Source: Lepidostoma basale
Taxonomy: Eukaryota; Arthropoda; Insecta; Trichoptera; Lepidostomatidae
DNA length: 64,000 bases
NCBI GenBank assembly: GCA_022606425.2
Contig: JAHDVF020000880.1
Location: 1,302,001 to 1,366,000 of the forward strand
Reading direction: 5' to 3'
Part shown: positions 3,207 through 60,924 of the stretch, one piece after another
How positions within the stretch are numbered: the stretch's first letter is position 1
How the letters are laid out: each line of letters starts with the position of its first letter
Notes under the pieces: model-generated
The model's input: the letters and a program-made list of their open reading frames with translations, nothing else
Databases searched by the model: none
Told to the model about the DNA's origin: nothing
Position numbers and translations under genes: made by a program

Positions 3207-3337
3207 ACCTCTGAAACGAATTGTGTTTAATATTTTTTTTTCTGTAAAAATATATGATACGTAAAAGTGGATAAGCCAGTATTTATAATTCTATTCCAAA
3301 TTATCACAATGAAAACAAATTAAAACTTCTGATTTCT

Positions 3338-3450
3338 TGAAGTTTTATTATATTTTATGGGAATGGCATGTTTCACGTGTCGAAGGCATTATCAAATATT
3401 TTCAAAAAATTGATAATGCCTTCGACACGCGAAACATGTCATTCAAATAA
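3338..3450. repeat. Foldback element with hammerhead-like arms (GCCTT family)
   Basis: Two inverted arms face each other. The plus arm has TTGATAA (3410-3416), TGCC, GCGAAAC, ATGTC. The minus arm mirrors it with GACATG-type and TTTCACG blocks at 3368-3385. The hammerhead core positions C3 and G8 are T and A in both arms, and stem II is decayed. Related copies lie at 43.4, 43.9, 55.4, 58.4 and 61 kb. Confidence 0.55.
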
Positions 3451-3639
3451 AATATAATTTAAAGTATTAATAATTTTAATTGGAGTTTACGTCATTGTTC
3501 AAGAAACAATAAATCTAATTATCATATATTAAACTAAATTATATTGTAACAACTTATGGAACGATAGGACATTAACACTTTGGAATTCCATAGTAGTTTA
3601 CTTTGGAAATTGAAGAACTTTGTTAAATCCACTATTTAA

Positions 3640-3795
3640 TAGAAAATATTAAAAAACACGACATGTTTCGGAGAATACCTCCATCTTAAGTTGTAAAAAT
3701 ATAATAAAAAATAAACAATTGAAGATTAATGAAGATGGAGGTATCCTCCGAAAAATATCATGTTTTTTTAAATATTTTTTATTAAATAGTGGATT
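3640..3795. repeat. Foldback element with hammerhead-like arms (GGAG family)
   Basis: Minus arm near 3660-3700: CTTAAGA, then GGAG/CTCC stem II, GAAAC, ATGTC, GTG. Plus arm near 3728-3770: ATGAAGA, GGAGGTATCCTCC, GAAAA. A third relative at about 9245-9290 keeps an intact CTGAAGA. The arms are separated by AT-rich sequence. Confidence 0.5.
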
Positions 3796-3799
3796 AAAC

Positions 3800-4440
3800 A
3801 AAGTTTTTCAATTTTCAAAGTATATATTGTAACAAAATATAACAGTCCGCATTAATATAAATTATACAATGCAACTTTAAAATTTTGAAATAATTGTTGA
3901 AAGCAATTAAATGTATTTTAAATAAACTATCCGAATCAAAATAAGCAGAAAATTTTGTAGTTTGAAAATATATCATTGGAATGCCAAATAATGCCTCATT
4001 AAAGCCACACAATAATTAAACGCGCCTGTTTTATGAGAATAACCAAAACAATAATGCATTAATGTTTGTATGAATGCGTTATAGGTTTACTCTGAATTTC
4101 AATGCAGCATCGGCTTTAATGCCCCGGTTCGAGGAATTTTACGTCGAATGCATATCCCGGGCGTGCATTCACAGCGCTCGAACCTTCATTGCCATAATGC
4201 ATTTAGTGAACTGAATCGTCGGAAATTACAATCTACATGGCTGCTTGTTAAATGCCAAATTGTTGAAAACCCCTTTGTGGCAACCTGACCCATATTCCCA
4301 CCCACTATTAAACCGGTGCAGAGTAGTCCATGGACGTTGTGTACTCAAACATTATAAATTTCTTAGATTGTATTATACATATTAGAGTTCAAGTTCCAAC
4401 CCTTGTAGCTACATAGGAACGGAAAAATAAAGATTAATTA
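3800..4440. other. No gene; non-repeat block of higher GC at 4080-4340
   Basis: The first half is AT-rich and featureless. From about 4080 to 4340 the sequence is compositionally normal, shows no family resemblance to other repeats in the window and has no open frame. A conserved noncoding segment or an old unique region are both possible. Confidence 0.35.
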
Positions 4441-6689: not shown

Positions 6690-7050
6690 AGAAAAACATG
6701 TTACTGTCATATAATGTAAAAAAATATATATTATTACTCTTAACATTACAATACTTTATTTCACTTAACACAGACATGTTTCGATTATAACATAATTTTT
6801 ATCAATATATATTATTATATAGTAAAAAAATATATATTATTACTCTTAACATTACAATACTTTATTTCACTTAACACAGACATGTTTCGATTATAACATA
6901 ATTTTTATCAATGTAAACATTTTATAAATATTGTACACTATAAAGGTTATGTTATTACCGAAACATGTATGTGTAAATTAAAATAAAGTATTGTAATACT
7001 AAGTACTATTATATTTATTCAAATATGAATCCACAACACAAAGTGAAGTC
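6690..7050. repeat. Foldback element with hammerhead-like arms and an internal tandem duplication
   Basis: About 88 bp (6718-6805) is repeated almost exactly at 6824-6911. Each copy contains on the minus strand TTGATAA, an ATTAT/ATAAT stem, CGAAAC, ATGTC. The right arm (6945-6985) carries GGTTATG, ATTACC, GAAACATGT on the plus strand. The flank near 7020-7050 (AACACAAAGTGAAG) recurs at 21770, linking this copy to the element at 21655. Confidence 0.6.
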
Positions 7051-7059
7051 GAATATAGA

Positions 7060-7690
7060 AGAACATATAAAAAAAAAAACAAATAGAAAATGAATGTTTT
7101 AATTAATATTAAGTAGTTAATCTAGATTTTTTATCATACTTCAAGTAACAATAAATCTTTTTGTTTATTTTTATCAATAATTTTTTTTTATTTGAATAAT
7201 AATTTAGTCTTATTTTAGCGTGACGTTTTTTTCATTTATTTGAATATTTTTACTACCTATGTATAAGTGAAGTTTTAACGATGACGTAGTAATTTAATGT
7301 TATAGGGCCGATGACGTGCAAATAAGTCATTAGTGCTTCAGCACACAATTAATACTGTGTCAAACGAATATAAATTTAGCGCCGCCTCTGTGATATGTGC
7401 AGTACCCGGATGGTTATTAATAAAATTTATATTGAAAATGTATTCCGTAATTTCGGCCTTTTGTTTTGAATTGAAAGCTCTCACGCTCCAAAAACCAATA
7501 ATTCCCGCAGGAATATTTCAAAAACTCGTTTTTAGAATAAAGTGTTCACAAAATGCTTTACGCCTGAACAATTAATTGCACAAAACTAAAAGCCAGATTG
7601 CTCAATAAAAATTCCAGTAAATACTCATATGAAAACGTTCTCTGTCATTTCGTTTACGATTCCATGACTATAAATTTTGTATATACATAT
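7060..7690. other. No gene recognised; unique-looking block 7290-7600
   Basis: 7290-7600 is less repetitive and includes an 80-codon ATG frame (7333-7575) without recognisable motifs, probably chance. Confidence 0.3.
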
Positions 7691-11894: not shown

Positions 11895-12358
11895 GTATCT
11901 ACGTAGGTTACGTAGTGTACATCACTACGTTACCCACGTACCCTACGCAGTCTACGTACCCAATATATCCTATGCACTCTACTTATCCTACGCGCTCTAC
12001 GTATCCTACGTACCGTATGTACCTACATACCTTACATGCCCTACGCACTCTACGTATCCTACGCATCCTACGTACCATACGCAGTCTACGTATCCAAAGC
12101 ACCCTACGTACCCTACGCACTCTACATAAAATTTGTATCCTACGTACCTTACCCACTCTACGTACCCTAAGCACCCTAAATACCCTACGCACTATACATA
12201 TTATTTGCACCCTACACACTCTACGCACTTACACACCTTACGCACCTTAAGCCCTCTACGCGTCATACGACGCCTTCGTATCTTATGCTCCCTACGTACC
12301 TTACGCACCTTACGCACCTAACGCACCTTACGCAGCCTACGTATCGTACGTACCGTGT
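11895..12358 (+). repeat. 9-bp TACG minisatellite
   Basis: About fifty degenerate copies of a 9-bp unit, consensus TACG(T/C)A(C/T)(C/T)C, for example TACGTACCC and TACGCACTC. Because 9 is a multiple of 3 and the unit lacks stops, open frames up to 111 codons appear on both strands (Tyr/Pro/Thr/Ser-rich on plus, Arg/Val-rich on minus). No start context or splice sites support a protein. Confidence 0.85.
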
Positions 12359-12359
12359 A

Positions 12360-13060
12360 TATTTGTCAAATTAACATGTACGTGTATAATATTTGCAATG
12401 GTTCCTTGCAATATTTTTTAAAAATCATACAACGCCTCTGACAAATAACTGTGTATTACAAAGATATGTAATAATACACATACACATAACAAACGACAGT
12501 GAAAAATAACTCACCGCATTCAGTGTGTCGTTTATTATACTTTCCATATCTCCTCAATTCTGTTTATAAAAAATATTTTTTTGATACGTTTGTATCACTC
12601 AACATCACATATTTAATGATTTACGCATAATAAACAACATAATTATTGTTTAAAAAAATTTAACTGTTATTTATTGCAGATTCCCTAAATTAAATCAGCG
12701 GCGTCATTTAAACATCCCGAATATAAATTTATATGAAGTTTTGTCTCATTTGTTTCATCGAACAAAATACATTTTTTGTAGATCTCTTTGGGACAATTTC
12801 ATATTTAAACAGTATTATTCATTCTTTAACGTAAATACATATGTAGCAAATAAAATACAGTAAAAAAATTTAAGAGGAAAATTTATTGGTTTATCTTTGA
12901 ATATATCATCGATTATTGTAATTCACATTTTTAATATCTTCATAAAAATAAAATTATAAGTTTAATAAGATTATTCAAACGATTTCAGTTATGGTTGGAA
13001 GGGAGAATACAGTGTAAATTCTCATTAATCAGTAATATAACACTTATTATCATATAATTT
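12360..13060. other. AT-rich sequence, no gene seen
   Basis: No open frame or recognised repeat. Confidence 0.45.
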
Positions 13061-15886: not shown

Positions 15887-16074
15887 CTAGAAAACAAAAT
15901 AAGGTATTTTAATTTTCTATAAAAAAATTGAAACCATAAAATAAAATGTTAATTTCTTATTTTGCTTACATAAAAAGAGTTGTTTTTCTTCTATATTTGT
16001 CATATTTTGTATTGTTATGATGCTTTATTTCTCTTTTTCTTTTTTATATACTCTGTATATACAACACTTCTATT

Positions 16075-16240
16075 AAAAAAATAAAATTACAAAGACATGT
16101 TTCGGACAACCATTCCTTCTTCAGTGATACATATTTTAAATATGTATCTTTATAATATGTATCACTGAAGAAGGACTGGTTGTCCGAAACATGTCTATGG
16201 AATTTTTATTTATTATAAAAGTGTTATATACACAAATAAC
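16075..16240. ncRNA. Inverted pair of hammerhead-like motifs (CTGAAGA family)
   Basis: Plus arm: CTGAAGA at 16165-16171, GGAC/GTCC stem II with a five-base loop (16173-16185), GAAAC, ATGTC ending at 16195. The stem III strand ACATGT is palindromic and GTC is a permitted cleavage triplet. One extra A sits between the core and stem II. The minus arm mirrors it at 16099-16132. The core CTGANGA and GAAA are intact in both arms. Activity is not shown. Confidence 0.6.
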
Positions 16241-16869
16241 ATAAAAAAGACAAAAAGATATATAGTTGTTTTTAATGATAACGATTAATACTTAGATTTC
16301 TAAGCATATGTTACTCTGTAATCACTACGCAGCATATTATTCATCGACCCATTTTGAAACGAACTTTTTAAAACGATATTTTCTTACAAATCTAATCATT
16401 ACAGCAATAATCTTCCTCAAATATCAGAGAATTAATAAACCCATACTCAAGATCATGATGCGGACGATTTGATAATCTGACTAAACTCTGTGATAACAGG
16501 CAGTTAAAATTTATAATGTATGCTATAAATATTTCTACTTAGCAGTGATCCAAAGTAATATTGAACAGTTTTGACACATCAATTTTAAGATTTGAATCGA
16601 TGAATATTAAATTTGAACCCAATAAGTAATAATATTGAATACAAAATCGAGTTATTTGACCTTTTCGGATAAATTATTATAACTTAGGGCCAAACTGACA
16701 GAGGTCAGACCAAAATGTCAATTTGTTCAAATCAAGAACTTAGACTATAAGAAGGCCTTAAATCTTTCGTTGGAGATAGGTACTAAATAATAATTTACTC
16801 AACGAAAATCTATAACTTCAAATCATAACAAGAATTGTAAAATAGAATATTGAAAAACAAGATACAATA

Positions 16870-19624: not shown

Positions 19625-20165
19625 GATTATTCAGTGTTTTTAATTATTAAAAATTAAACGCCTTAGCATTCTTAAATGAATTAAACCGCTGTTTTGCACA
19701 TTCAAAAGTGGAAAAATATAGTGTTTTAATTTATAAAAAATTTATCATTTTAGAATTCCAGAGTGTTAACGCATTAAGTTTATCTAAAAAAATCTAGCCT
19801 TAATATTTTATTAATGAAATAAAACGATGTATTTTAACTACTGCCACTTTTGTCTTTATTTCGACAGCGACCTGAATTGGTCTGAATCGACCAGTCGCTG
19901 TCGAAATAAAGACAAAAGTGAAAGTACGAGGGTTGTCCGTAAAACAAGTTTCCCTGTTTGCCACGGGCGCGCGGATCGCCGTTACGTGCGATCCGGCAAC
20001 ACGTAGCTTGGTCCGCCTCCACACCTCCACCCAGCCAAACTCGCTGCGACGCTCAGTATCGGTTTGTTTTTACGGACAACCCTCGTAGTTAAAAAACAAA
20101 AATTATTTTAATTATTATTTAAAATTCACTTCCATCAAGAGATTTCAGTAAAATAATTTGATTAG
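19625..20165. repeat. Foldback element (GCCAG hammerhead-like family) carrying a MITE
   Basis: Outer inverted sequence ACTTTTGTCTTTATTTCGACAG (19847-19868) versus CTGTCGAAATAAAGACAAAAG (19898-19918). The central hammerhead-like region is lost in this copy. The right part, interrupted by the MITE at 19927-20085, continues with GTTAAAAAAC and CTTCCATCAAGAG, as in the copy at 43660-43830. Confidence 0.6.
19927..20085. mobile_element. 159-bp mariner-type MITE with TA duplication
   Basis: Terminal inverted repeats CGAGGGTTGTCCGTAAAA at both ends, flanked by TA (19925-19926 and 20086-20087). The interior is GC-rich and appears derived from mariner terminal regions. The related foldback at 43760 shows the unoccupied sequence GAAGTAGTTAAAA, confirming the insertion boundary. 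Confidence 0.85.
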
Positions 20166-21649: not shown

Positions 21650-21800
21650 ATTGTTTAAATTGTGTACGTTGATAAAGGTTACTTGTAACCGAAACATGTC
21701 TGAGTTCAGTGAAAATAAAATGTGTTGTAATACAAAGTATAATTATATTTATTCAAATATGAATCCATAACACAAAGTGAAGGCGAATGTAGAAGAAGAT
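21650..21800 (+). ncRNA. Hammerhead-like motif with T3/A8 core (GGTTAC family)
   Basis: TTGATAA (21669-21675), then a perfect 6-bp stem II GGTTAC/GTAACC with a TT loop (21677-21690). GAAAC and ATGTC follow, ending at 21700. The C3 and G8 positions of the canonical core are T and A. The downstream flank with AACACAAAGTGAAGGCGAA is shared with 7020-7050. Only one arm is well preserved. Confidence 0.55.
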
Positions 21801-22499: not shown

Positions 22500-23155
22500 A
22501 TAGAAGGTTATACCCGTAAGAGTGTTTTCGTACGTATGTACAATATAATAAAGCACTGAGATTCGAATACCTTTATTCTCGAAGGTCTCAGACAAATAAT
22601 CTAAGCCCATAGCTGTAATATAATATCTTAACCCGTTTCACTCCTCCCTTATATTATTACAACTCATCAAATCACTTCGACATGTTAAATTTGCGTGCCA
22701 GCCGAGCGGCCCACCGCAGACGCGCACATCGATCTTGCTCATCTGGCTGAACAAGTACAATGAATATTAAAGCTTGTTATTCCTCGAAAAACTTGAGCAA
22801 CGAACTAGGGTAAGCTGAGTTATCTTCGTGATACTGCGGCTTATGTAATATTATATTATACTAAAAGAACCTTTGTTCACGTTCTCATACTAAAAGTGTA
22901 ATACATACTCGTATATTAATCCACTCTTGCCCGAGCATAACACATAAAACTCAAATTAAACAATACATATTTTTTACACACAAAGTTTTACCATAGTTTT
23001 CATTGCGAAAATATTAATTTTAAATTTCCATCTTAAAATTATTCTACTAACTGCGTTCAGAGAAGGGGGTTCCTACCACATACCCGAATCTGTTAATATA
23101 TTTTCCCTAGTTCACACTATTGTTTAGTGGTTATACTTGAATATAAATTATATAA
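22500..23155. other. No gene recognised
   Basis: A GC-richer patch at 22690-22850 is not recognisable as repeat or coding. The remainder is AT-rich. Confidence 0.35.
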
Positions 23156-23159
23156 ATAG

Positions 23160-23280
23160 TGACAAATTTGTTTCGCCATGCGAGGGCGTTCTCAAACTGC
23201 TATTGACATTTAATATTTGAGTTTGAGAATGCCATGGCAAGGCGAAACAAATTTGTAACTATTGATATAAATTAAATCTA
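23160..23280. ncRNA. Inverted pair of hammerhead-like motifs with T3/A8 core (GAGAA family)
   Basis: Minus arm: TTGAGAA (23195-23189), CGCC/GGCG stem II, GAAAC, and a 10-nt palindromic stem III ACAAATTTGT, then C. Plus arm: TTGAGAA (23223-23229), GCC/GGC stem, GAAAC, AAATTTGT, then A. Both GTC and GTA fit the NUH rule. Both arms carry T at core position 3 and A at position 8. Confidence 0.55.
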
Positions 23281-23569
23281 AGTAAAACCGCTAAACAATC
23301 AGTCAAACTCCACATACAAATAATCAAATTGATGCGTGAAGTAATTTATTTTTTGATAAATAATGAAAAATTGAAGTGTAAGGATGTACTCGTATAGGTA
23401 TTTTACTTTGATAAACAGGGTCAAATTTAAAATAATGTCTTGCAATGAAAATTTTAAATTATCTTATATTAAAAAATAGAATTAAACACTTTTTCGTAGT
23501 ATAAACCGATTAATTTAAATAAAGTGGGTTAGTTATAAGTGAGAAGGTATTTAATGAAATTTTTAAATG

Positions 23570-23850
23570 GTGTTTTTTATTTTTATTTATAAAAAATATT
23601 TTGAACTGTTAAATTAAATTCCTTTGTTTTTCGTATCACAATTTTATTATATTTTAAGGTTAGAAAAATCACGAAAATTTGACATTTGATATATTATTGT
23701 AACACCTGATGATGTCAACATAGGCTGATGAAACAGCTGTCACGTAAAATAAAATACAATTGTGATACAAAAAACAAAGTTATTTAATTTTACAGTTTAA
23801 AATGTTAAGGTATCATAGTGTTTCGGCCAAAACAATGGACTTTTTAAAAG
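23570..23850 (+). ncRNA. Hammerhead-like motif (CTGATGA family), single arm
   Basis: CTGATGA at 23706-23712, a weakened stem II (GTCAAC against GCTGAT), GAAAC, and palindromic ACAGCTGT followed by C at 23741. Flanks ATAAAATACAATTGTGATAC and the downstream GTTTCGGCCAAAACAATGG block recur with the other members at 44.9-46.8 kb. Confidence 0.6.
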
Positions 23851-24783: not shown

Positions 24784-25794
24784 TTAGGTGTATAACTTTG
24801 CTTCCGCCGTTTTTTTTTTCGAAATTCGAGGCTTTATCGTAAAAAACTGGTTATACATTTATGATTCAAAGTATTGTCCATCGCTGGCCACTATATTCTC
24901 CCATCTTTCGGGCAGCATACGAATCCCGCGTTGAAAAAACTGGTCATCTTTTGAAGCGATCCACGAATTGATCCAATTTTTTACTTCTTCATAAGACCGG
25001 AAGTGCTGGTCAACTAGGCCATGTGCCATTGATCGAAACAAGTGATAGTCCGAGGGAGCAACGTCTGGAGAATACGGCGGGTGGGGTAGGACTTACGGCG
25101 GGATATCCCGATGATTTTCTGCGCTTGGGATTATCGTAATGAACCCATTTCTCGTCCCCAGTCACAATGCGATGCAGAAATCCCTTCCGTCTTTGCCTTG
25201 CAAGCAGCTGTTCACAAACACACAAACGCCGTTCAACATCTCTCGGCTTCAACTCGTACGGCACCCAATGTCCTTGTTTCTGAATAATTCCCATGACTTT
25301 CAGGCGTTTTGAAATGGCTGGTTGCGTCACTCCCAATGATCCTGCCAATTCTTGTTGCGTTTGACACGAGTCTTGATTAAGTAATGCCTCCAATTCTGCA
25401 TCTTCGAAAACCTTCTCTCTTCCACCGCCATGCTGGTCTTCGACGTTAAAATCACCGTTCTTGAAGCGTTTAAACCACTCTCGGCACGTTCTTTCACTAA
25501 TAGCGGCCTCACCATAGGTATTTGAGAGCATTCGACGAGCCTCAGCCGCAGATTTCTTCATATTAAAGTATAAAATTAAAACCTCCCGCAAATGACGAGA
25601 ATTTGGCTCGTAAGCTGACATGTTTAAACGGGAATAACTTTATGATGCAGACACAAATCGACTAATATTTCGATGGCGTTATGTTTACAAATACTTAAGC
25701 TTATTGTATGACATCTATGATCTATTTATTCCAACTACCACTTACCGCTACTGCCATCTATTGCAAAACGGCGGAAGCAAAGTTATACACCTAA
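24784..25794 (-). mobile_element. Mariner element 1, internally deleted, TIRs intact
   Basis: Perfect inverted ends: 24784-24813 and 25765-25794 share a 30-bp repeat beginning TTAGGTGTATAACTTTGCTT. TA flanks both sides (24782-24783 and 25795-25796). At 1011 bp it is about 300 bp shorter than full-length mariners of this type. Confidence 0.9.
24859..25621 (-). pseudogene. Mariner transposase (mauritiana-like), internal deletion
   Basis: ATG at 25621. The N-terminal DNA-binding part is intact (REVLILYFNMKKSAAEARRM, EWFKRFKNGDFNVED, LGVTQPAISKRLK, GHWVPYELKPRDVERR). The first catalytic Asp is present in IVTGDEKWVHYDN. Near 25100 the frame jumps to PPYSPDVAPSDYHLF, which holds the third catalytic Asp. 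The HDNARPH region with the second Asp is deleted and the frame shifts. The C-terminus (PERWENIVASDGQYFES) follows to 24859. The element is inactive on its own but could be mobilised in trans, as its TIRs are perfect. Confidence 0.85.
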
Positions 25795-25803
25795 TATATT
25801 TAT

Positions 25804-26818
25804 TTAATCAAAGTATGTACCATTGCTATCTTTGCACTTTTGCCATCTCATAGGTAGTTCATCGATCCCTTTACTAAAAAAAACATTCGGACGGGAATCA
25901 ATAAAATCTTTGAAGTCGGTTTGGACTGCCCCATCGGAGTTGAATTTTTTCCCTTGCAAGAAGTTATCCAAATTTCGAAAAAAATAGTAATCTGTTGGGG
26001 CAAGGTCCGGAGAGTACGGTGGATGTCTTAGACATTCCAATTGAAGCTCTTTTAATTTGGTAGCCGTCTGTTGTGCAGTGTGTGGTCTAGCGTTATCATG
26101 AAGCAGCAGTGGCCTAGAGCGATTAACCAGCCTCGGTTGTTTAGCAGCTAGCTTTTCCATCATGGTTTGCAGTTGCTGACAATTGACATCTGCCGTAATC
26201 GTCTAGCCAGATTTAAGAAAGCTGTAGTGAACGACACCAGCACTAGTCCACCAAACGCTCACAAGTAACTTTTTTGGAGTTTTCGCTTGGGGCATGGCTT
26301 GGCTGGTTCGGCAGGGTTCAGCCATTGCGATGAGCGCTTCCGATTATCATACAAGATCCACTTTTCATCACAGGTAATGGTTCGATTCAAAATCCCTTCA
26401 TTATTGTGCCGGTTGAGTAATGCAACGCTGCAGTCAATGCGCGTTTGTTGATTTGCTTCACCCAATTCGTGAGGTACCCACCTTTCAAGATTTTTCACCT
26501 TCCCAATTTGCTTCAAGTGGATTAAAACAGTTTTATCACTAACACCGCAGCCTGCAGCTAACTCGTACGTGGTTGCGATGGATCCGCTTCCACAATAGCC
26601 TTCAATTCTTTATTATCAACTTTGGTCTCCGGCCGTTCACGGGACTTGTTCTGCAGGTCGAAATTTCCAGAACGAAAACGTTGGAACCAAAAACGCACTG
26701 TGTTTTCTTTTGCGGCACTGTCGCCATACACATCATTAATCCTTCGAGCCGTTTCTGCAGCACTGGTGCCACGGTGGAACTCGTACTCGTAAATAACGCG
26801 ATATTTCAAGTTTTCCAT
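25804..26818 (-). pseudogene. Mariner transposase 2 (SETMAR-like group), frameshifted
   Basis: Start ATG near 26818 (MENLKYRVIYEYEFHRGTSA). Segments in different frames follow: VRFWFQRFRSGNFDLQNKSR, then KQIGKVKNLERWVPHELGE and ITCDEKWILYDN with Asp 1. The last segment has LLHDNARPHTAQQ with Asp 2 and HPPYSPDLAPTDYYFF with Asp 3, ending at 25804. At least two frameshifts (near 26570 and 26270) and one in-frame stop (near 26210) inactivate it. All three catalytic Asp remain readable. Confidence 0.85.
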
Positions 26819-30912: not shown

Positions 30913-30959
30913 TTCACTCTGGGATTTCTATGAAATAAATATTTATAAATAACTATTTA

Positions 30960-31140
30960 ATCAAACGTTGTTTTTTAACTACTTTCGCATTTGTTTTTAT
31001 TTCGACATGTTTCGCTGATCTGTATGTATATAAAGGAGCCATTTATTAATAGTATCACCAGTTTGTCGATGCCACCAAGGCTGGCGAAACTGGCTCCTGT
31101 CGAAAAAAAGACAAAAGTGGAAGTAAAAAAGAAAGAAAAT
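30960..31140. repeat. Foldback element (GCCAG/GCCAC hammerhead-like family)
   Basis: Left CGCATTTGTTTTTATTTCGACA, right TGTCGAAAAAAAGACAAAAG. Right arm near 31060-31085: TCGATGCCACCAAGGCTGGC, GAAAC, TGGCTCC. The CTGANGA core is degraded to GTCGATG. Confidence 0.5.
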
Positions 31141-33280: not shown

Positions 33281-33349
33281 GTAAGATACTTCCACTCTGA
33301 ATTTTTCTCAAAATCACAAATATTAAAAACATTTACTTCGAATAGCATA

Positions 33350-34000
33350 TCAGTGTATTAGTATAATAAGTAGGTACGAGATATTCAATTATTGGGTAAG
33401 AGATATTCAAATTAATAAGTGGGTAAAGGATATTCAATTATGGGGTAAGATATATTTAATATGGGGTAAGATATATTCAATTCAATAAGTCGGTATAAGA
33501 TATTCAATTATGGAGTAAGATATATTTAAATATGGGGTTAGAGATATTCAAATAAGCGGTAAGAGATATTCAGTTATTAAAATAATGTTGTTAAATATGA
33601 TTTTACTTCAAATTGTGAATAAATTACATGATTTATAATAATTGGGTGAGAGATATTCAAATAAGGGGTAAAATATATTCAATGCAAAAAGTTGGTAAGA
33701 ATTACATGTATTCAGTTATTAAAATAATGCTATTAAAAATAAATTTACTACAAATCGTGAATAAATTACATGATTTATAATAATTGTATAAGAGATATAC
33801 AAGTAAGGGGTAAAATATTTTCAATTCAATAAGTTGGTAAGAGATATTCAGTTATTAAAATAATGCTGTTAAATATAAATTTACTACAAATCGTGAACAA
33901 ATAACATGATTTATAAGAATTGGGTAAGAGATATTTCAGTCATTAAAATAATGCTATTAAATATAAATGTTATACAAACCGCAAACAGATTACTGTTTTA
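33350..34000 (+). repeat. Satellite-like array of GGTAAGAGATATTCAA units
   Basis: Short units (GGTAAGAGATATTCAA, GGGGTAAGATATATTCAA and variants) are organised into a longer repeat of about 90-145 bp. That repeat is marked by CAGTTATTAAAATAATG at 33573, 33716, 33849 and 33937. An outlying unit lies at 34413-34495 beyond a foldback insertion. Confidence 0.8.
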
Positions 34001-34244
34001 GATCTAAACATGACAATCAATGTTCCAAAGACACATGTATTTTTTTGCAAACTGTTAAATTATTGAACACAGTTCTAATACGGATACAAACTTATTTATT
34101 TTATATTATAAATAGCAGTGCCCGCCATGCGTACAAATTCCCTTTTCATTTATATTGGTTTGAAATAGGTACACGTATACAAAACAGACACATTAACATG
34201 AACACAATATATAAAAGAATAATTTTATTTTATTTCTCTTTTTC

Positions 34245-34875
34245 TTTTATAAACACTTTGTTTATACAACACTAACATTTAAAAAAATTATAATTAAATG
34301 TACATATTTCGGACAACCAGTCCTTCTACAGTGAAACATATAAAGATACATATTTAAAATATTATATTAATTATTTGTATTATTTTCTTCATTTTTAATT
34401 TAAAATAAATTAAATTATTAAAATAATGGTGTTAAATATACATTTACTACAAATCGTGAACAAATTACACGATTTATAATAATTGGGTAAGATTACAATT
34501 TAAAATAAAGAAAATATTATAAATAATCGAATAAATTAAGCGTCAAGTCCAATTTTTGATTTATTTATTTTGTTTTAAGTAAAATTACCTGAACCCCAAA
34601 AAGATTATTCTTTGAAAAATTAAATTCAATCATGATATTTGTTACAACAAAAGCATACACGTTCCAAAATAAATCTTTATAACATCTGTCAGATCATGTA
34701 AACAATTTTATAATGTTTTGAATATGCATCTTTATAATATGTATCACTGAAGAAGGGCTGGTTATCCGAAACATGTCTATGTAATTTTAATTTTTTTAAT
34801 GTAAGTGTTGTTTAAAAAAAGAAAAGATAAATAAAGCAATTACAACACAAAGTATGGCGAATTTAGAAGATATTT
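34245..34875. ncRNA. Hammerhead-like pair (CTGAAGA family), arms separated
   Basis: Plus arm: CTGAAGA (34746-34752), GGGCTGGTTATCC stem-loop, GAAAC, ATGTC. The minus arm at 34308-34340 is decayed (TTTCGGACAACCAGTCCTTC). Satellite sequence lies between the arms, so the foldback was opened by rearrangement or insertion. Same family as 16075-16240. Confidence 0.5.
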
Positions 34876-43304: not shown

Positions 43305-43630
43305 ATAATAACTAAAAAACAGACGTTTTCATTCGTATTTATTGTTTCTTGAACAGTGTTGTAAAACTCCATATTAAATAATTAATTCCAACAAAATCGT
43401 CTGTTTTCGTGAAGTTTTGTTAAAATTGGAAGAAACATGTTTCGTTTTTGTAAGGCCTTCTGCCTTTGATAATGCCTTAAGAAGACGAAACATGTATATT
43501 TTATATATCACAATAAAACTTTAATAAAATAGACGTTTTCATTGGTATTCAATCTTTAAATGGAGTTTTACATCACTGTTCAAGAAACAATAAATACGAA
43601 TGTAAACGTCTATTTTCTAGATATTTAAAT
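43305..43630. repeat. Foldback element with hammerhead-like arms (GCCTT family)
   Basis: Outer palindrome AACAGACGTTTTCATTCGTA (43318 on) against TACGAATGTAAACGTCTATT (43596 on). The inner right arm has TTGATAATGCCTT (43467), AGACGAAAC and ATGTATATT. The left inner arm is GAAACATGTTTCGTTTTTG. Core C3/G8 are T/A. Confidence 0.5.
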
Positions 43631-43649
43631 TATTGTTTTTCTAATAATT

Positions 43650-43835
43650 AAATAAAACGATGTTTATTTAACAACTTCCACTTTTGTCTTTATTTCAACA
43701 GCGACCGATTTCGCCAGGCTCGCTGGCAACGACAGACTGTCGAAATAAATACAAAAGTGGAAGTAGTTAAAAACATCGTTTTTTTTTAATTATTTTATAT
43801 ATTATACTTCCATCAAGAGATTTCAGTAAAATCAT
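43650..43835. repeat. Foldback element (GCCAG hammerhead-like family), uninterrupted
   Basis: CCACTTTTGTCTTTATTTCAA (43677 on) against CTGTCGAAATAAATACAAAA (43737 on). The inner minus arm contains GCCAG/CTGGC stem II, GAAAT and CGGTC. At 43761 GAAGTAGTTAAAA is the empty counterpart of the MITE insertion site at 19925. Confidence 0.6.
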
Positions 43836-44837: not shown

Positions 44838-45290
44838 ATTTAAAAAACTTAGTCCATTGTTTTGGCCAAAACACGATGTGATACCTTAACATTTTAAACT
44901 ATTAAATTAAATAACTTTGTTTTTTGTATCCCAATTTTATTTTATTTTACGCGACAGCTGTTTCATCAACCAATGTTGACATCATCAGATATTACAATAA
45001 TATAATAATGTTATATAATAGAAATAATGCGAACTGTCGCTATAATCTCATAAAATATTTTTATTACTTTAAATTATTCTACCATTTTGTATTTGTAATA
45101 GCGTGTAATTGGCTTTACCTAATTGTTTAAATATACTTTTGATTTATGTACTGAAATGGCTGTACGTTACCCCCAATAAGTAAATAAATAAAAATAAACT
45201 GTCATAAAAAAAAGTCATTTAAATTTAAAACATATTACAAGTATCACAGCGTTTCAGTCAAAACAATGGACTACGAATTTATGTTAAAAC
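44838..45290. ncRNA. Hammerhead-like arm (CTGATGA family) split by a LINE 3' end
   Basis: Minus strand: CTGATGA at 44988-44982, GTCAAC/GTTGAT stem II, GAAAC, palindromic AGCTGT, C, GCG. The element's outer flank TCCATTGTTTTGGCCAAAAC (44852 on) reappears inverted at 45255-45280. Between them lies a Jockey-like LINE 3' end. Confidence 0.65.
45005..45195 (+). mobile_element. Jockey-like LINE 3' UTR
   Basis: GTGTAATTGGCTTTACCTAA, ACTGAAATGGCTGTACGTTA, CCCCCAATAAGTAAATAAAT. Same 3' end as the copy at 22390-22480. Confidence 0.6.
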
Positions 45291-46185: not shown

Positions 46186-46289
46186 CTTTTCTTTCCTGAC
46201 ATATTTCTCTCGCTTCCTCAACATTCATACAAAATAATTTAATTTCATTTATAATTTTATTTTATTTTATTCATAATTTCATACTCCAA

Positions 46290-46520
46290 CATTATTAACT
46301 GTTAAAATTGATCACACTGTTTTGATATCGCAATTTTTACTATTCACTGTTTGGGGGTGTCGCGACAGCTGTTTCGCCAACCCATGTTGGCGTCATCAGG
46401 TGTTACAAACAAATGCTGTTTGTAATACCTGACGATACCAACATCGGTTGGCGAAACAGCTGTCGCGACTCACCCAAAAAGGTGATCATAAAAATTGCGA
46501 TATCATTACAGTGTTATTAG
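46290..46520. ncRNA. Inverted pair of hammerhead-like motifs (CTGATGA family)
   Basis: Minus arm: CTGATGA (46399-46393), CGCCAAC/GTTGGCG stem II with ATGG loop, AAAC, AGCTGT, C at 46364. Plus arm: CTGACGA (46429-46435), CCAAC/GTTGG stem (46438-46451), GAAA (46453-46456), palindromic ACAGCTGT, C at 46464. Both cores are intact. Stem I is short (first and third base pairs form in the minus arm). Confidence 0.7.
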
Positions 46521-46554
46521 TTTTAACAGTTCTAATTTTTTTATATTTATAAAC

Positions 46555-46830
46555 TCTTAAATTAAAAAAAACTATGTTTAATGTATCACAATTGTATTTG
46601 ATTTTTCGCGACAGCTGTTTCGTCAACCTATGTTGACATCATCAAGTGTTTTAACACATTATTATTGTAACACCTGATGATGTCAACATAGGTTGACGAA
46701 ACAGGTGTCGTGAAAAATAAAAAATTAATTGTGATACATAAAACATTTTTATTTTAAATTTAACAGTTTATAGTGTTAAAGTATCATAGTGTTTCGGCGA
46801 AAACAATGGACTATTTTATTTTTATAGTAA
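46555..46830. ncRNA. Inverted pair of hammerhead-like motifs, best preserved stem I
   Basis: Plus arm: CAC (46671-46673), CTGATGA (46674-46680), stem II GTCAAC/GTTGAC with ATAG loop (46682-46697), GAAA (46698-46701), ACAGGTGT, C at 46709, then GTG (46710-46712). CAC pairs with GTG as stem I. The minus arm (46606-46652) has TTGATGA with stem II intact. Flanked by ATTGTGATACATAAAA and the GTTTCGGCGAAAACAATGG block. Confidence 0.75.
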
Positions 46831-48535: not shown

Positions 48536-48780
48536 TGACGACCTTCGTGGCCGAGTGGTAAGTGCATTGACTGCCACCACAAAGGTTCCGGGTTCGATAC
48601 CCGGCGAGGCCAGTGTGATTGTCACACTGTCTTTGGTCTGGTGTAGAATTCACGTAACAATAAGAAGATATATTAGCTACCTATCACATGTTACGAGAAT
48701 CACTATGATAGCTATAATAGCCTTTACATCGATTTGGCTCATGCTGTCATGATGTCAAGAGCGATTTTAAAATTTAAAAA
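48536..48780 (+). mobile_element. tRNA-derived SINE, full body (first of three)
   Basis: Perfect A box TGGCCGAGTGG (48548-48558) and B box GGTTCGATACC (48592-48602) at tRNA-like spacing. Then the family body GTGTGATTGTCACACTGTC, TTTGGTCTGGTGTAGAATTC, CTACCTATCACATG. The tail is poly-A after GATGTCAAGAGCG, without the Jockey-type tail. Confidence 0.85.
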
Positions 48781-49492: not shown

Positions 49493-50280
49493 TCAACCTT
49501 CATGGCAGAGTGGTAAGTGCTCTGACTTTCATACAGAAGGTTCCGGGTTCGATTCCCGGCGATGGCAGTATGATTGTCACACTGTCTTTGGTCTGGTGTA
49601 GAATTCACGTGACAACTAAACTAACTAACTTACCATCACGCCGTCTCCCCGGAAGGATAGGCAGAACTAATGGAACGCCACACTGTTCTATCCTGACATA
49701 CTTCTCTGGATTCCTCTACATTCATACATCTTGTCATGCACGCACGTCGATTTCTCCGACTCCTCACGTGACCGACATTCAATATTTGATTGATTTGATC
49801 GTGCCACGTTTTCCTCGGCCTTCTTCTGCCTTCCTCTATTTCTAGCTCCGTTCACGCCGTTAACATATACCTTCTTTACCATTCTGTCTTCACTCATTAT
49901 TTCCATGTGTCCAAACCATCTTAATGACCCTTTCCTTATTTTGTTCATAACACTTTCATTCGCACCACATTCACTTCTTGTACTTGCATTTGTCACTCTA
50001 TCATAAACAGATTTGCCACACATTCGTCTTAGAGATCTCATTTCTACGGCATTTATTCTACTTTTATCCTTCTTTTGCCATTTCCATGCTTCATTTCCAT
50101 ACATAAGGGTCGGCACAAGAACACCATTGTGCACTGCCATCTTGGCTTTTTTGGATAGGCTTTTCTTTGCGATGACAACTTTAAGTGACAATAAAATTGC
50201 GATAGATTGGCTACCTATCACATGTCATGATAATCAATATAATAGCTCTAATAAAATGTATACAGTAATTGGGTTTAAAA
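49493..50280 (+). mobile_element. tRNA-derived SINE with nested LINE (third of three)
   Basis: The SINE runs 49493-49615 and resumes at 50192-50280, ending ATGTATACAGTAATTGGGTT and poly-A. Between them a TTAG-tailed LINE is inserted. The poly-A ends about 25 nt before the acceptor of the Ig exon at 50313. Confidence 0.85.
49616..50184 (-). mobile_element. TTAG-tailed LINE 3' end inserted in a SINE, with target duplication
   Basis: GTGACAA at 49609-49615 and 50185-50191 is the duplicated target. Starts (CTAA)n, ACCATCACGCCGTCTCCCC. The minus frame gives LSLKVVIAKKSLSKKAKMAV, HNGVLVPTLMYGNEAWKWQK, SVYDRVTNASTRSECGANES and GSLRWFGHMEIMSEDRMVKK. Confidence 0.85.
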
Positions 50281-55479: not shown

Positions 55480-56095
55480 GTGAAAAATTGCTTAAATCTA
55501 TTTTTCAATATGTCATACCAGCAAGTAATGGCTTCGTTTCAAAGTGTTTAAATGTCAACAGTTTTTGGTAAAAGTTAACACAATGCACAATTTAATCAAC
55601 AATCTTCCGGTTGCCGAATGTGATAATTGTTTAAATATGACGCAAGCTGCACAATGCACAGAGCTATTCGATAAATTCTCCGCTTGTGAGAAGATGAACT
55701 AAAGCGGCCATCCGGAAAGCGGAAGATAGCTGGTCCCATAGTGTGGAAGGTAACTGTCGATTCTAACGAAAAATTATAGTCATGTGGAATTCTTTTCACG
55801 GACTTTTTATTAATAGAATCTATTTTATCAAACTTTAATCCAATTTCTTATTTAGTATTTGAAATTTATGTACTAAACCAAATATTTTAATAATGTACCA
55901 GGAACTTAGATCTTTCAAAGGGACACGAATATATTGTCATTGTATTAATAAAGAGACTGCCCGATTACTGTTATTAACATTGTAATTTTAGTGTCGTGTA
56001 ATACGAGTATGAACATATTGTTTAAATATAATATTTTATTACAGTATTTCTTCTGAATTCGCCTTCGCTTTGTTTCCTGGATTCACATTTTATTT
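55480..56095. other. Intron sequence, no gene seen
   Basis: A 67-codon minus frame at 55596-55799 shows no motif. The rest is AT-rich. Confidence 0.35.
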
Positions 56096-56099
56096 AATA

Positions 56100-56285
56100 G
56101 AAAAACCACTTTGTATTTTCATAACACTTTATTTATTTTTTGATTTACAGACACATTTCGCTTGTGACCCAACCTTTTTCGATACACATAAAATGTGGGC
56201 ATCGAAGGAGTTGTTGGATGAACCGAAACATACCTATATGTTAAAATAAAAATAAAGTTTTATGAAATAAAAATTGATATTCTAT
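56100..56285. repeat. Foldback element, hammerhead-like but degenerate
   Basis: CATTTCGCTTGTGACCCAAC on the left and GTTGGATGAACCGAAACATA on the right. GAAACAT is retained, but no clear CTGANGA is visible. Confidence 0.35.
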
Positions 56286-56559
56286 TTATTTAAATATTAC
56301 AGTAACTCAGATAAATTCATTGAAACTAGTAGAAATACATAATCAGTATATTATAAAATATGAGAAAAAATAGTACAAAAATATCAGCTAAAGTAGTAAT
56401 AAAATAAACAAACTATTTTTATATTTAATGTATTTATAGCAAAAATATCAACCGTCATATAGTTTAAAAGTCAAAGATATATGAAGAGTTTTATGGATTG
56501 AAAAATTGAAAAATAATTAAAAGCTCTTTATTATTTTGTTTTTACACCACGTTATTTGT

Positions 56560-60074: not shown

Positions 60075-60299
60075 GTAAGTGGAAAATAAATTTAATAAAC
60101 AAATGAAGTAGTAATTAAGGGCAATGATAGAATTTTCAACATCTCTTACTTTCCATATCTTGTAATAGAATAATAAAAGTGTGTAAAACAAATATTCCGG
60201 AATTATTTGAATATTATATAATTATTCAAAATAAACTTTGAATTTCTTCCGTCATTTTGTGTTGTGAATTCACATTGGAATAACTTTTTTTTTTATGAA

Positions 60300-60780
60300 T
60301 TAAAACGCTGATTTTTCCACTTTCGTGTTTATTTTTCTCGGCATGTTTCGAAGGCTTACACCTTCATCATCGGGAGAACGATATAAACTTTTTTTTTCAG
60401 TTTATATCGTTATCCCGATGATGAAGGTTTACACCATCATTATTATTATTATTATTTTTATTTTGTTCAATCGCTCTTTACATCATGACAGCATGAGCCA
60501 AATCTATGTAAGGGGTATTATAGCTATCATAGTGATTCTTGTGACATGTGATAGGTAGCAAATCTATCGCCATCTTATTGTCACAAAAATTCTACACCAG
60601 ACCAAAGACAGTGTTACAATTACACTGCCTTCGTCGGGAATCGAACCCGGAACCTTCGGGGTGGCAGGTAATGCACTTACCACTCAGCCACGAAGGTCGT
60701 CGGATCATCAGACCTTCATCATCAGCCTTCAAAACATGTCGAGAAAAATAAATTCAAAAGTAGAAAAAACAGTGTTTTAA
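60300..60780. ncRNA. Hammerhead-like foldback with 5-bp stem I, split by a SINE
   Basis: Minus arm (60378-60335): TTCTC, CCGATGA, GAAGG/CCTTC stem II with a TGTAA loop, GAAAC, ATGCC, GAGAA. TTCTC pairs with GAGAA as a 5-bp stem I. Position 4 of the core is C instead of T and the cleavage triplet is GCC in this arm. The right arm (60383-60425, interrupted, resuming near 60710) keeps ACATGTC, GAG. A tRNA-derived SINE separates the right arm. Confidence 0.55.
60450..60702 (-). mobile_element. tRNA-derived SINE, full body, antisense
   Basis: Minus strand: A box TGGCTGAGTGG (60692 region), B box GGTTCGATTCC (60640 region), body and an end CATGACAGCATGAGCC-like (plus-strand reading). (ATT)n at 60438-60452 is the tail complement. 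Nearest relative: 48536-48780. Confidence 0.8.
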
Positions 60781-60924
60781 TTCATAAAAATTCGTCATTA
60801 TGGAATTCCACAATGTTAACGCCTTATGTTTATCTAAAATGAATAACTTTTCATAAACGTTGTATTTTCACAACACATTAAACTCCATATTAAATAATTT
60901 ATACAAATGAAAGGTTTGTTTTCT

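Follow-up and report, generated by a model that had tools for sequence, protein, structure and literature searches.

What are the two foldbacks that lie side by side between 46.3 and 46.8 kb in a 64,000-nucleotide stretch of the Lepidostoma basale genome (the window), and are the hammerhead-like motifs in their arms derived from true ribozymes? The original prediction was that each foldback presents such a motif on both strands, facing each other, and that relatives occur at 23.7 and 44.9 kb. The pair with its facing motifs is indeed found at this place, and so are the relatives, at 23706 on the plus strand and 44953 on the minus strand. The features of the locus are as follows, the palindromic units being unstranded.

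46281..46531: family A palindromic insertion of the stem II GCCAAC/GTTGGC subfamily, motif in both arms (label 46297)
46364..46399, minus strand: hammerhead-like motif in the left arm of 46281..46531; CTGATGA, stem II of 6 bp, ACAGCTGT, GTC
46429..46464, plus strand: hammerhead-like motif in the right arm of 46281..46531; CTGACGA, A.C at the base of stem II
46548..46818: family A palindromic insertion; left arm short, right arm long with an ATG-bearing tail
46610..46645, minus strand: hammerhead-like motif in the left arm of 46548..46818; TTGATGA, giving U3.G8; ACAGCTGT
46674..46709, plus strand: hammerhead-like motif in the right arm of 46548..46818; CTGATGA, stem III ACAGGTGT, stem I CAC/GTG

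The arms of the first palindrome, 46297-46411 and 46417-46531, are complementary at 84%, and the palindrome is self-inverse at 82.6% over 235 bp; its left edge at 46281 was set by homology to the other family A tail. In the second palindrome the arms 46597-46650 and 46669-46722 are 93% complementary, with an extension (46548-46606 and 46714-46772) at 80%, and self-inversion amounts to 84.6% over 227 columns, the homology ending 62-65 nt past the triplet on the left and about 108 nt past it on the right. The 3' end of the motif points outward in each arm of both palindromes (46297-46531 and 46548-46772), and the best flanking repeat of either unit (46281..46531 and 46548..46818) is 8 bp long, which is at chance level.

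The arm at 46671-46712 had been singled out as having every element of a hammerhead. The core CTGATGA, stem I CAC/GTG and the triplet GTC are all there, but not the symmetry of stem III, which reads ACAGGTGT in this arm and the self-complementary ACAGCTGT in the other five family A copies. Stem I CAC/GTG is confined to this copy, the other five having GCG or ACG after the triplet, and one additional base stands between core and stem II. In the predicted minimum-energy fold of the arm alone, CACCUG pairs with CAGGUG so that core bases are occupied. A stem I pairing of its own, the lost symmetry of stem III and the predicted misfold together mean that this arm is not the best ribozyme candidate.

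Three comparisons rule out a chance motif. The pattern CTGANGA...CGAAA...GTC occurs six times in the window, at 46364-46399 (-), 46429-46464 (+), 46674-46709 (+) and three times in another family, against 0.05 occurrences expected. A stricter pattern, with a TGA core, a stem II of at least 4 bp and a self-complementary stem III, has six matches in the window against four in 200 shuffled windows; among the four arms at 46.3-46.8 kb it passes 46364 and 46610, and rejects 46429 for the A.C at the base of stem II and 46674 for a stem III that is not self-complementary. The third, CGAAACATGTC with at most one mismatch, has 17 matches against 0.94 expected. Twelve of these 17 fall inside palindrome spans that make up 9.5% of the window (binomial P 2e-9), and the palindromes for this association test were located by self-comparison, blind to the motif.

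The feature extends beyond 46.3-46.8 kb, as the 64 kb hold 15 palindromes of one design, 14 from self-comparison and one (30938) found by homology. They are self-inverse units of roughly 150-640 bp with no ORF between or beside the arms, and in every palindrome whose two arms both have a readable motif, the 3' ends point outward. Eight families are readable: A (CTGATGA), B (CTGAAGA), B' and C (TTGATAA), D (TTGAGAA), and E, F and G, which are decayed. If the 3-8 pair is disregarded, 10 of the 15 palindromes keep one undamaged core or more, and both cores are undamaged in four (3347, 16023, 23119 and 46297). The other five (3599, 30938, 43643, 56087 and 60290) have decayed cores and were included by homology and design. 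Outside the locus the features are these, palindromes and inverted pairs again being unstranded.

23595..23842: family A palindrome of tails (label 23595); single motif 23706-23741 (+)
44850..45273: family A inverted tails, both sides long; one motif 44953-44988 (-); no flanking repeat
15988..16263: family B palindrome (label 16023); motifs 16094-16124 (-) and 16165-16195 (+); arms 106 nt past the triplet on the left, 68 nt on the right
15978..15987 (plus strand) and 16264-16273: 10 bp target-site duplication AGTTGTTTTT, left and right of the 16023 palindrome
34235..34871: family B palindrome (label 34256); intact core 34747 (+); arms 66 nt left, 94 nt right
56047..56294: family H palindrome (label 56087); cores decayed; arms 103 nt left, 60 nt right
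6723..7067: family B' palindrome (label 6829); U3-A8 cores 6911 and 6805 (-); right tail long
21660..21800, plus strand: family B' solo copy; TTGATAA...CGAAACATGTC at 21669-21700, long tail
3307..3516: family C palindrome (label 3347); U3-A8 cores in both arms, 3395 (-) and 3410 (+)
43307..43625: family C palindrome, both sides long; U3-A8 core 43466 (+), left core decayed
23119..23299: family D palindrome; both arms with a U3-A8 core, TTGAGAA; stem III ACAAATTTGT; no flanking repeat
3599..3822: family E palindrome; decayed cores; no flanking repeat
60250..60791: family F inverted pair (label 60290); decayed cores; left arm long, right short; interrupted
43643..43794: family G palindrome of tails; one decayed motif 43703-43735 (-)
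30938..31125: family G inverted pair, decayed; homology only

The 34235-34871 palindrome is interrupted by about 400 bp of another repeat, an AT-rich tandem and dispersed one found at 33341-33978 and 34408-34541. The left arm of 6723..7067 is tandemly duplicated (6723-6908), the sole tandem found. Solo copies are represented by 21669 and by the decayed or partial 48310, 51065, 55373, 58401, 60981 and 9293. Family G has tail palindromes with one or no motif at 43643-43794, 51065, 19812-19926 and 30938-31125, and the arms of the first would lengthen stem I of its single motif to nine pairs.

The segments of the motif follow in the order core, one additional base, hairpin, GAAA, a short self-complementary stretch (variants ACAGCTGT, ACATGT, ACAAATTTGT and ACCGGT) and triplet. 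A core of the form CUGANGA ... GAAA ... NUH is present in families A and B; B', C and D have it with U3 and A8, and in E, F, G and H it has decayed. Positions 3 and 8 pair in active hammerheads, and in the window the five families A, B, E, F and G have C-G here, the three families B', C and D U-A. Complete agreement would be expected in 1 of 56 relabellings if the families were independent, a figure that is overstated because B and B' share features. Single copies do make exceptions: 46610 (U.G), 6938 (C/A or unreadable), 31065 (U.G by eye), 43895 (core lost) and the decayed E copy 3733. Cores with U3 and A8 (TTGATAA, TTGAGAA) stand at 21669, 6879, 3410, 43466, 55373, 58401, 60981, 23161 and 23223. 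In these three families the catalytic pair C3-G8 thus has a compensated version, U3-A8.

In hand-picked family representatives 29 of 30 stem II positions pair, where shuffling gives a mean of 17.8 and equals this result once in 20000 trials. The corresponding values for stem I, 24 of 30 against 12.7 (5 of 20000), profit from favourable choices, GTG of family A being present in one copy only. Copy by copy, at least four consecutive stem II pairs are found in 11 of 26 as scored, with several windows out of register, and at least three stem I pairs adjoining the core in 8 of 26 as scored, with little or none in families B and C. The scoring misplaced the core of B34302, C3361, C48310, E3733, F60340 and G31065, where it was read from the printed sequence. 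Since stem II and the 3-8 pair keep pairing at the family level while their letters change, the motifs are, judged by sequence, descendants of real, minimal hammerheads, with a present cleavage activity that is only putative.

In the six copies of family A the 36-base motif has 7.9% differences within subfamilies and 16.0% between them, and the approximately 60 bases past the motif have 17.6% and 34.0%, a contrast that is partly built in, the copies having been found via the motif and the tails being AT-rich with gaps. We read the difference as a trace of selection that once acted on the parent element, and not as selection on the palindromes. The two tests that came with the original prediction gave a mixed answer: no family matches in the Rfam hammerhead covariance check, even at E up to 10, and in the six family A copies, with the bias just named, core and stem II do not drift like the neighbouring sequence. 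Minimal hammerheads without a stable helix III may score below the Rfam models.

Penelope-like elements had been named as a known home of hammerhead motifs, which is right. Their minimal hammerheads are reportedly the subject of work by Cervera and de la Pena in 2014 and Lunse et al. in 2017. Those of the window are alike in core, in stem II and in a vestigial stem III, which is self-complementary and for which a dimer would be needed, whereas the 3-8 pair of the Penelope-like ones is C3-G8 and three families in the window have U3-A8 instead. No natural U3-A8 hammerhead was found described in the literature searched.

A transcript of 46535-46830 is predicted to form one hairpin of -119.4 kcal/mol, against -48 in shuffles (z -17.7), and one of 46297-46531 a hairpin of -154.5. 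As the RNA of a whole palindrome would fold as one hairpin, in which ribozyme and complement mostly pair together, cleavage from a palindrome transcript is by this prediction unlikely. The hairpins 3347-3458, 23119-23299 and 46297-46531 match many Rfam microRNA models below gathering scores and could be misread as microRNA genes. We reject that reading, as about 35 different families match the same hairpin, and the matches are thus explained by hairpin shape. The general warning is that long palindromes of this type, being hairpins, match numerous microRNA models for that reason alone.

How the palindromes are bounded was judged at 14 elements (all palindromes but 30938), with the ends fixed from homology before flanking repeats were sought. 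Exact flanking repeats of 10 bp (16023), 13 bp (34256), 10 bp (56087) and 11 bp (23595) were found, so that four of the 14 elements have at least 10 bp, three of them exactly at the pre-set ends. The 13 bp duplication ATTTTATTTTATT, at 34222 and 34872, is of low-complexity sequence, the 10 bp duplication TATTACAGTA lies at 56037 and 56295, and the 11 bp repeat AATTTTTAAAT, at 23558 and 23862, is uncertain, as it lies 20-30 bp outside the homology ends. Repeats of 8 bp occur at 6829, 46548, 3347 (AATTATCA, at chance level), 43307 and 46297 and of 7 bp at 60290 and 43643, these lengths being at chance level throughout, and none of at least 7 bp was found at 44850, 3599 and 23119. Random pairs of positions reach at least 10 bp in 1.3% (wide) or 0.22% (tight) of cases and at least 8 bp in 8.8%, so that the first three or four repeats alone count. 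A short AT-rich target duplication is present at three units, and at most others it is absent or at chance level. The palindrome unit is a mobile insertion.

The three duplication-bounded units have one arm of 60-68 nt and one of 94-106 nt past the cleavage triplet. Their long-short differences are 38, 28 and 43 nt, the 28 involving the 94 nt arm of 34256, which has an internal deletion relative to its relatives; in families A and F the difference is about 40-49 nt. The long ends of families B and H stop in one homologous stretch, GAATNNAGAAG, and homology ends 62-65 and 105-114 nt past the triplet in A, 70-73 and 107 nt in B, and 50 and about 91 nt in F. Arm lengths could be scored in 10 of the 15 palindromes (46297, 3599, 23119, 43643 and 30938 stand outside this count). 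A short and a long arm are combined in seven of the 15 (16023, 34256, 56087, 46548, 23595, 6829 and 60290), both sides are long in 43307 and 44850, and 3347 is probably mixed.

BLAST relates the tails of B', F and H to one another, although their ribozyme segments differ, and the left-arm tail of 60250..60791 (family F) is common to B'. It is as if ribozyme and tail had been exchanged as modules. A search for the AC-rich tail with one 32-base consensus gave only two copies with at least 22 matching bases, and such a copy also turned up in 1 of 20 shuffles; the tail relationships therefore rest on BLAST. The shared F/H/B' tail is seen at 60249-60283, 56048-56134, 7015-7066 and 21753-21800. Three A tails have an ATG at +94 to +97 (within AAAACAATGGAC), two B' tails have one at +56/+59, and the tails of B, F and H have one too; in AT-rich tails such ATGs can arise by chance, and frames were judged by eye.

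In anatomy the palindromes match Penelope elements, and PAc, a Poseidon element of Anolis carolinensis, minus the body, and we therefore read them as bodiless pLTR pairs. That compact inverted pairs are without precedent does not hold, since Penelope elements are described with inverted pLTRs head to head, a palindromic junction and duplications of 8-10 bp, and with a 31 bp tail on one inverted pLTR, the first 12-22 codons being included and the first 12 of them lying in the pLTR (PMC3846280). Pen2a_Av and others of Adineta vaga, in the same source, are alike in having inverted pLTRs, a tail on one arm and the start of the ORF in pLTR or tail; they differ in that their pairs flank an ORF, and hammerheads occur nowhere in that paper. 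PAc is reported to cut and extend both strands, to have two adjacent internal start sites of reverse transcription that explain a tail of 30-40 bp, and to carry a hammerhead at the junction of pLTR and ORF, which cleaves only with the protein and is dispensable for insertion in vitro (PMC11167929). In the part of that paper available to us PAc forms tandems of full elements and head-to-head joining is not reported, whereas the palindromes of the window are head to head. Two features of this anatomy are seen in the window, the inverted arrangement with its palindromic junction and the tail of 30-40 bp that one pLTR may carry.

We give a probability of about 0.6 to the palindromes being bodiless Penelope-like insertions, made of two hammerhead-bearing 5' pLTRs head to head that come from reverse transcriptase priming on both ends of a break. 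Probably a single staggered cut in the target would start the process, the RT of the element priming on both ends. Each DNA end would prime a copy of its own, the cDNAs would be joined at their 3' ends and fill-in would make the duplication, and the outer ends would be two internal start sites of reverse transcription like those of the anole PAc. The joining of two same-sense cDNAs is a step that we infer, and it counts against the explanation. The hammerhead would serve the RNA of the parent element, and since it would be buried in the hairpin of a whole-palindrome transcript, the palindromes are probably inert by-products. It also tells against the explanation that a scan of 10 of the 22 ORFs of at least 110 aa showed no Penelope RT or GIY-YIG gene, but RVT_1 and Mos1-type domains, which fit an animal, and so do the three of 14 elements that lack a flanking repeat of at least 7 bp, the chance-level repeats of 7-8 bp and the low complexity of the 13 bp duplication. 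A viral contig scan gave no match.

A serious rival, which we nevertheless consider unlikely, also starts from Penelope and has a strand fold back at the 5' end of the pLTR and prime its own copying, so that both arms stem from one molecule. Self-priming of this kind is offered in PMC3846280 for palindromic junctions, there needing an antisense template. Arms nearer to their partner than to any other arm would agree with it, and this is so in 46297 (77.9%) and 3347 (80.6%), although a shared subfamily origin would have the same effect. In 46548 (79.2% to the partner, 87.0% to arms of other palindromes) and 16023 (85.3% against 89.7%), however, the arms are no nearer each other. Nor is it obvious how the copying of one molecule would leave outer ends of two lengths, short on one side and long on the other, each at a fixed site. 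We favour independent priming on the two ends because the outer ends fall on two positions that resemble start sites.

Much less probable, and already disfavoured, is a reading of the units as DNA transposons of the foldback or MITE-like sort, which a transposase would move by their terminal inverted repeats and in which the resemblance to hammerheads would be incidental. Palindromic elements of such size are common in animal genomes, and long inverted repeats, AT-rich duplications and the lack of coding capacity would all fit. But the two arms of a unit end at unequal lengths by design, the termini are not exactly shared and have no common motif, the inner ribozyme motif is conserved and not the ends, and solo copies with a single arm exist (21669).

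Animal retrozymes, small non-autonomous units spreading as hammerhead-cut circular RNAs, are a very improbable source too: they share small size, AT-richness and a type I hammerhead with the window, and insects are among the animals in which repeats resembling retrozymes have been reported (PMC7229834), but retrozymes are direct head-to-tail tandem repeats with a motif per unit, whereas the pairs of the window are inverted and its sole tandem (6723-6908) duplicates a left arm.

For bodiless pLTR pairs there are two further points of contact, and because of them we regard the kind as already known. Short nonautonomous Penelope elements are abundant in heliconiine butterflies (PMC6685494) and, as far as their description goes, resemble the palindromes in being short, bodiless and abundant, and a guide to TE curation (PMC8969392) speaks of inverted pLTRs that have 3' extensions. 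Of the bodiless double-hammerhead form and of U3-A8 families no description was found in the literature searched.

The origin of inverted and tandem Penelope ends is unsettled between self-priming (PMC3846280) and two-strand internal initiation, as seen in vitro (PMC11167929). Bodiless palindromes with a short and a long arm, bounded by duplications, would document two-ended priming in nature and could be counted in every genome, and if the pLTR reading is true, this open question of Penelope insertion becomes testable. The U3-A8 families are a natural test of how much change the hammerhead core tolerates. We tentatively go further and suggest, while expecting this wider claim to fail rather than to hold, that Penelope RTs routinely fire from both ends of a break, with a separate RNA at each end and a choice there between two start sites, that the joined product is a new bodiless palindromic class, and that its hammerheads include natural lineages in which U3-A8 has replaced C3-G8.

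Other repeats of the window are a degenerate minisatellite at 11915-12378 with a 9-base unit like CCCTACGTA, and tRNA-like matches at 49496-49567, 60626-60697 and 48541-48612, which are likely heads of SINEs. There is also a broken relic of a mariner-type transposase at 25010-26163, with a Mos1 HTH above the cut-off and a DDE_3 match below its own.
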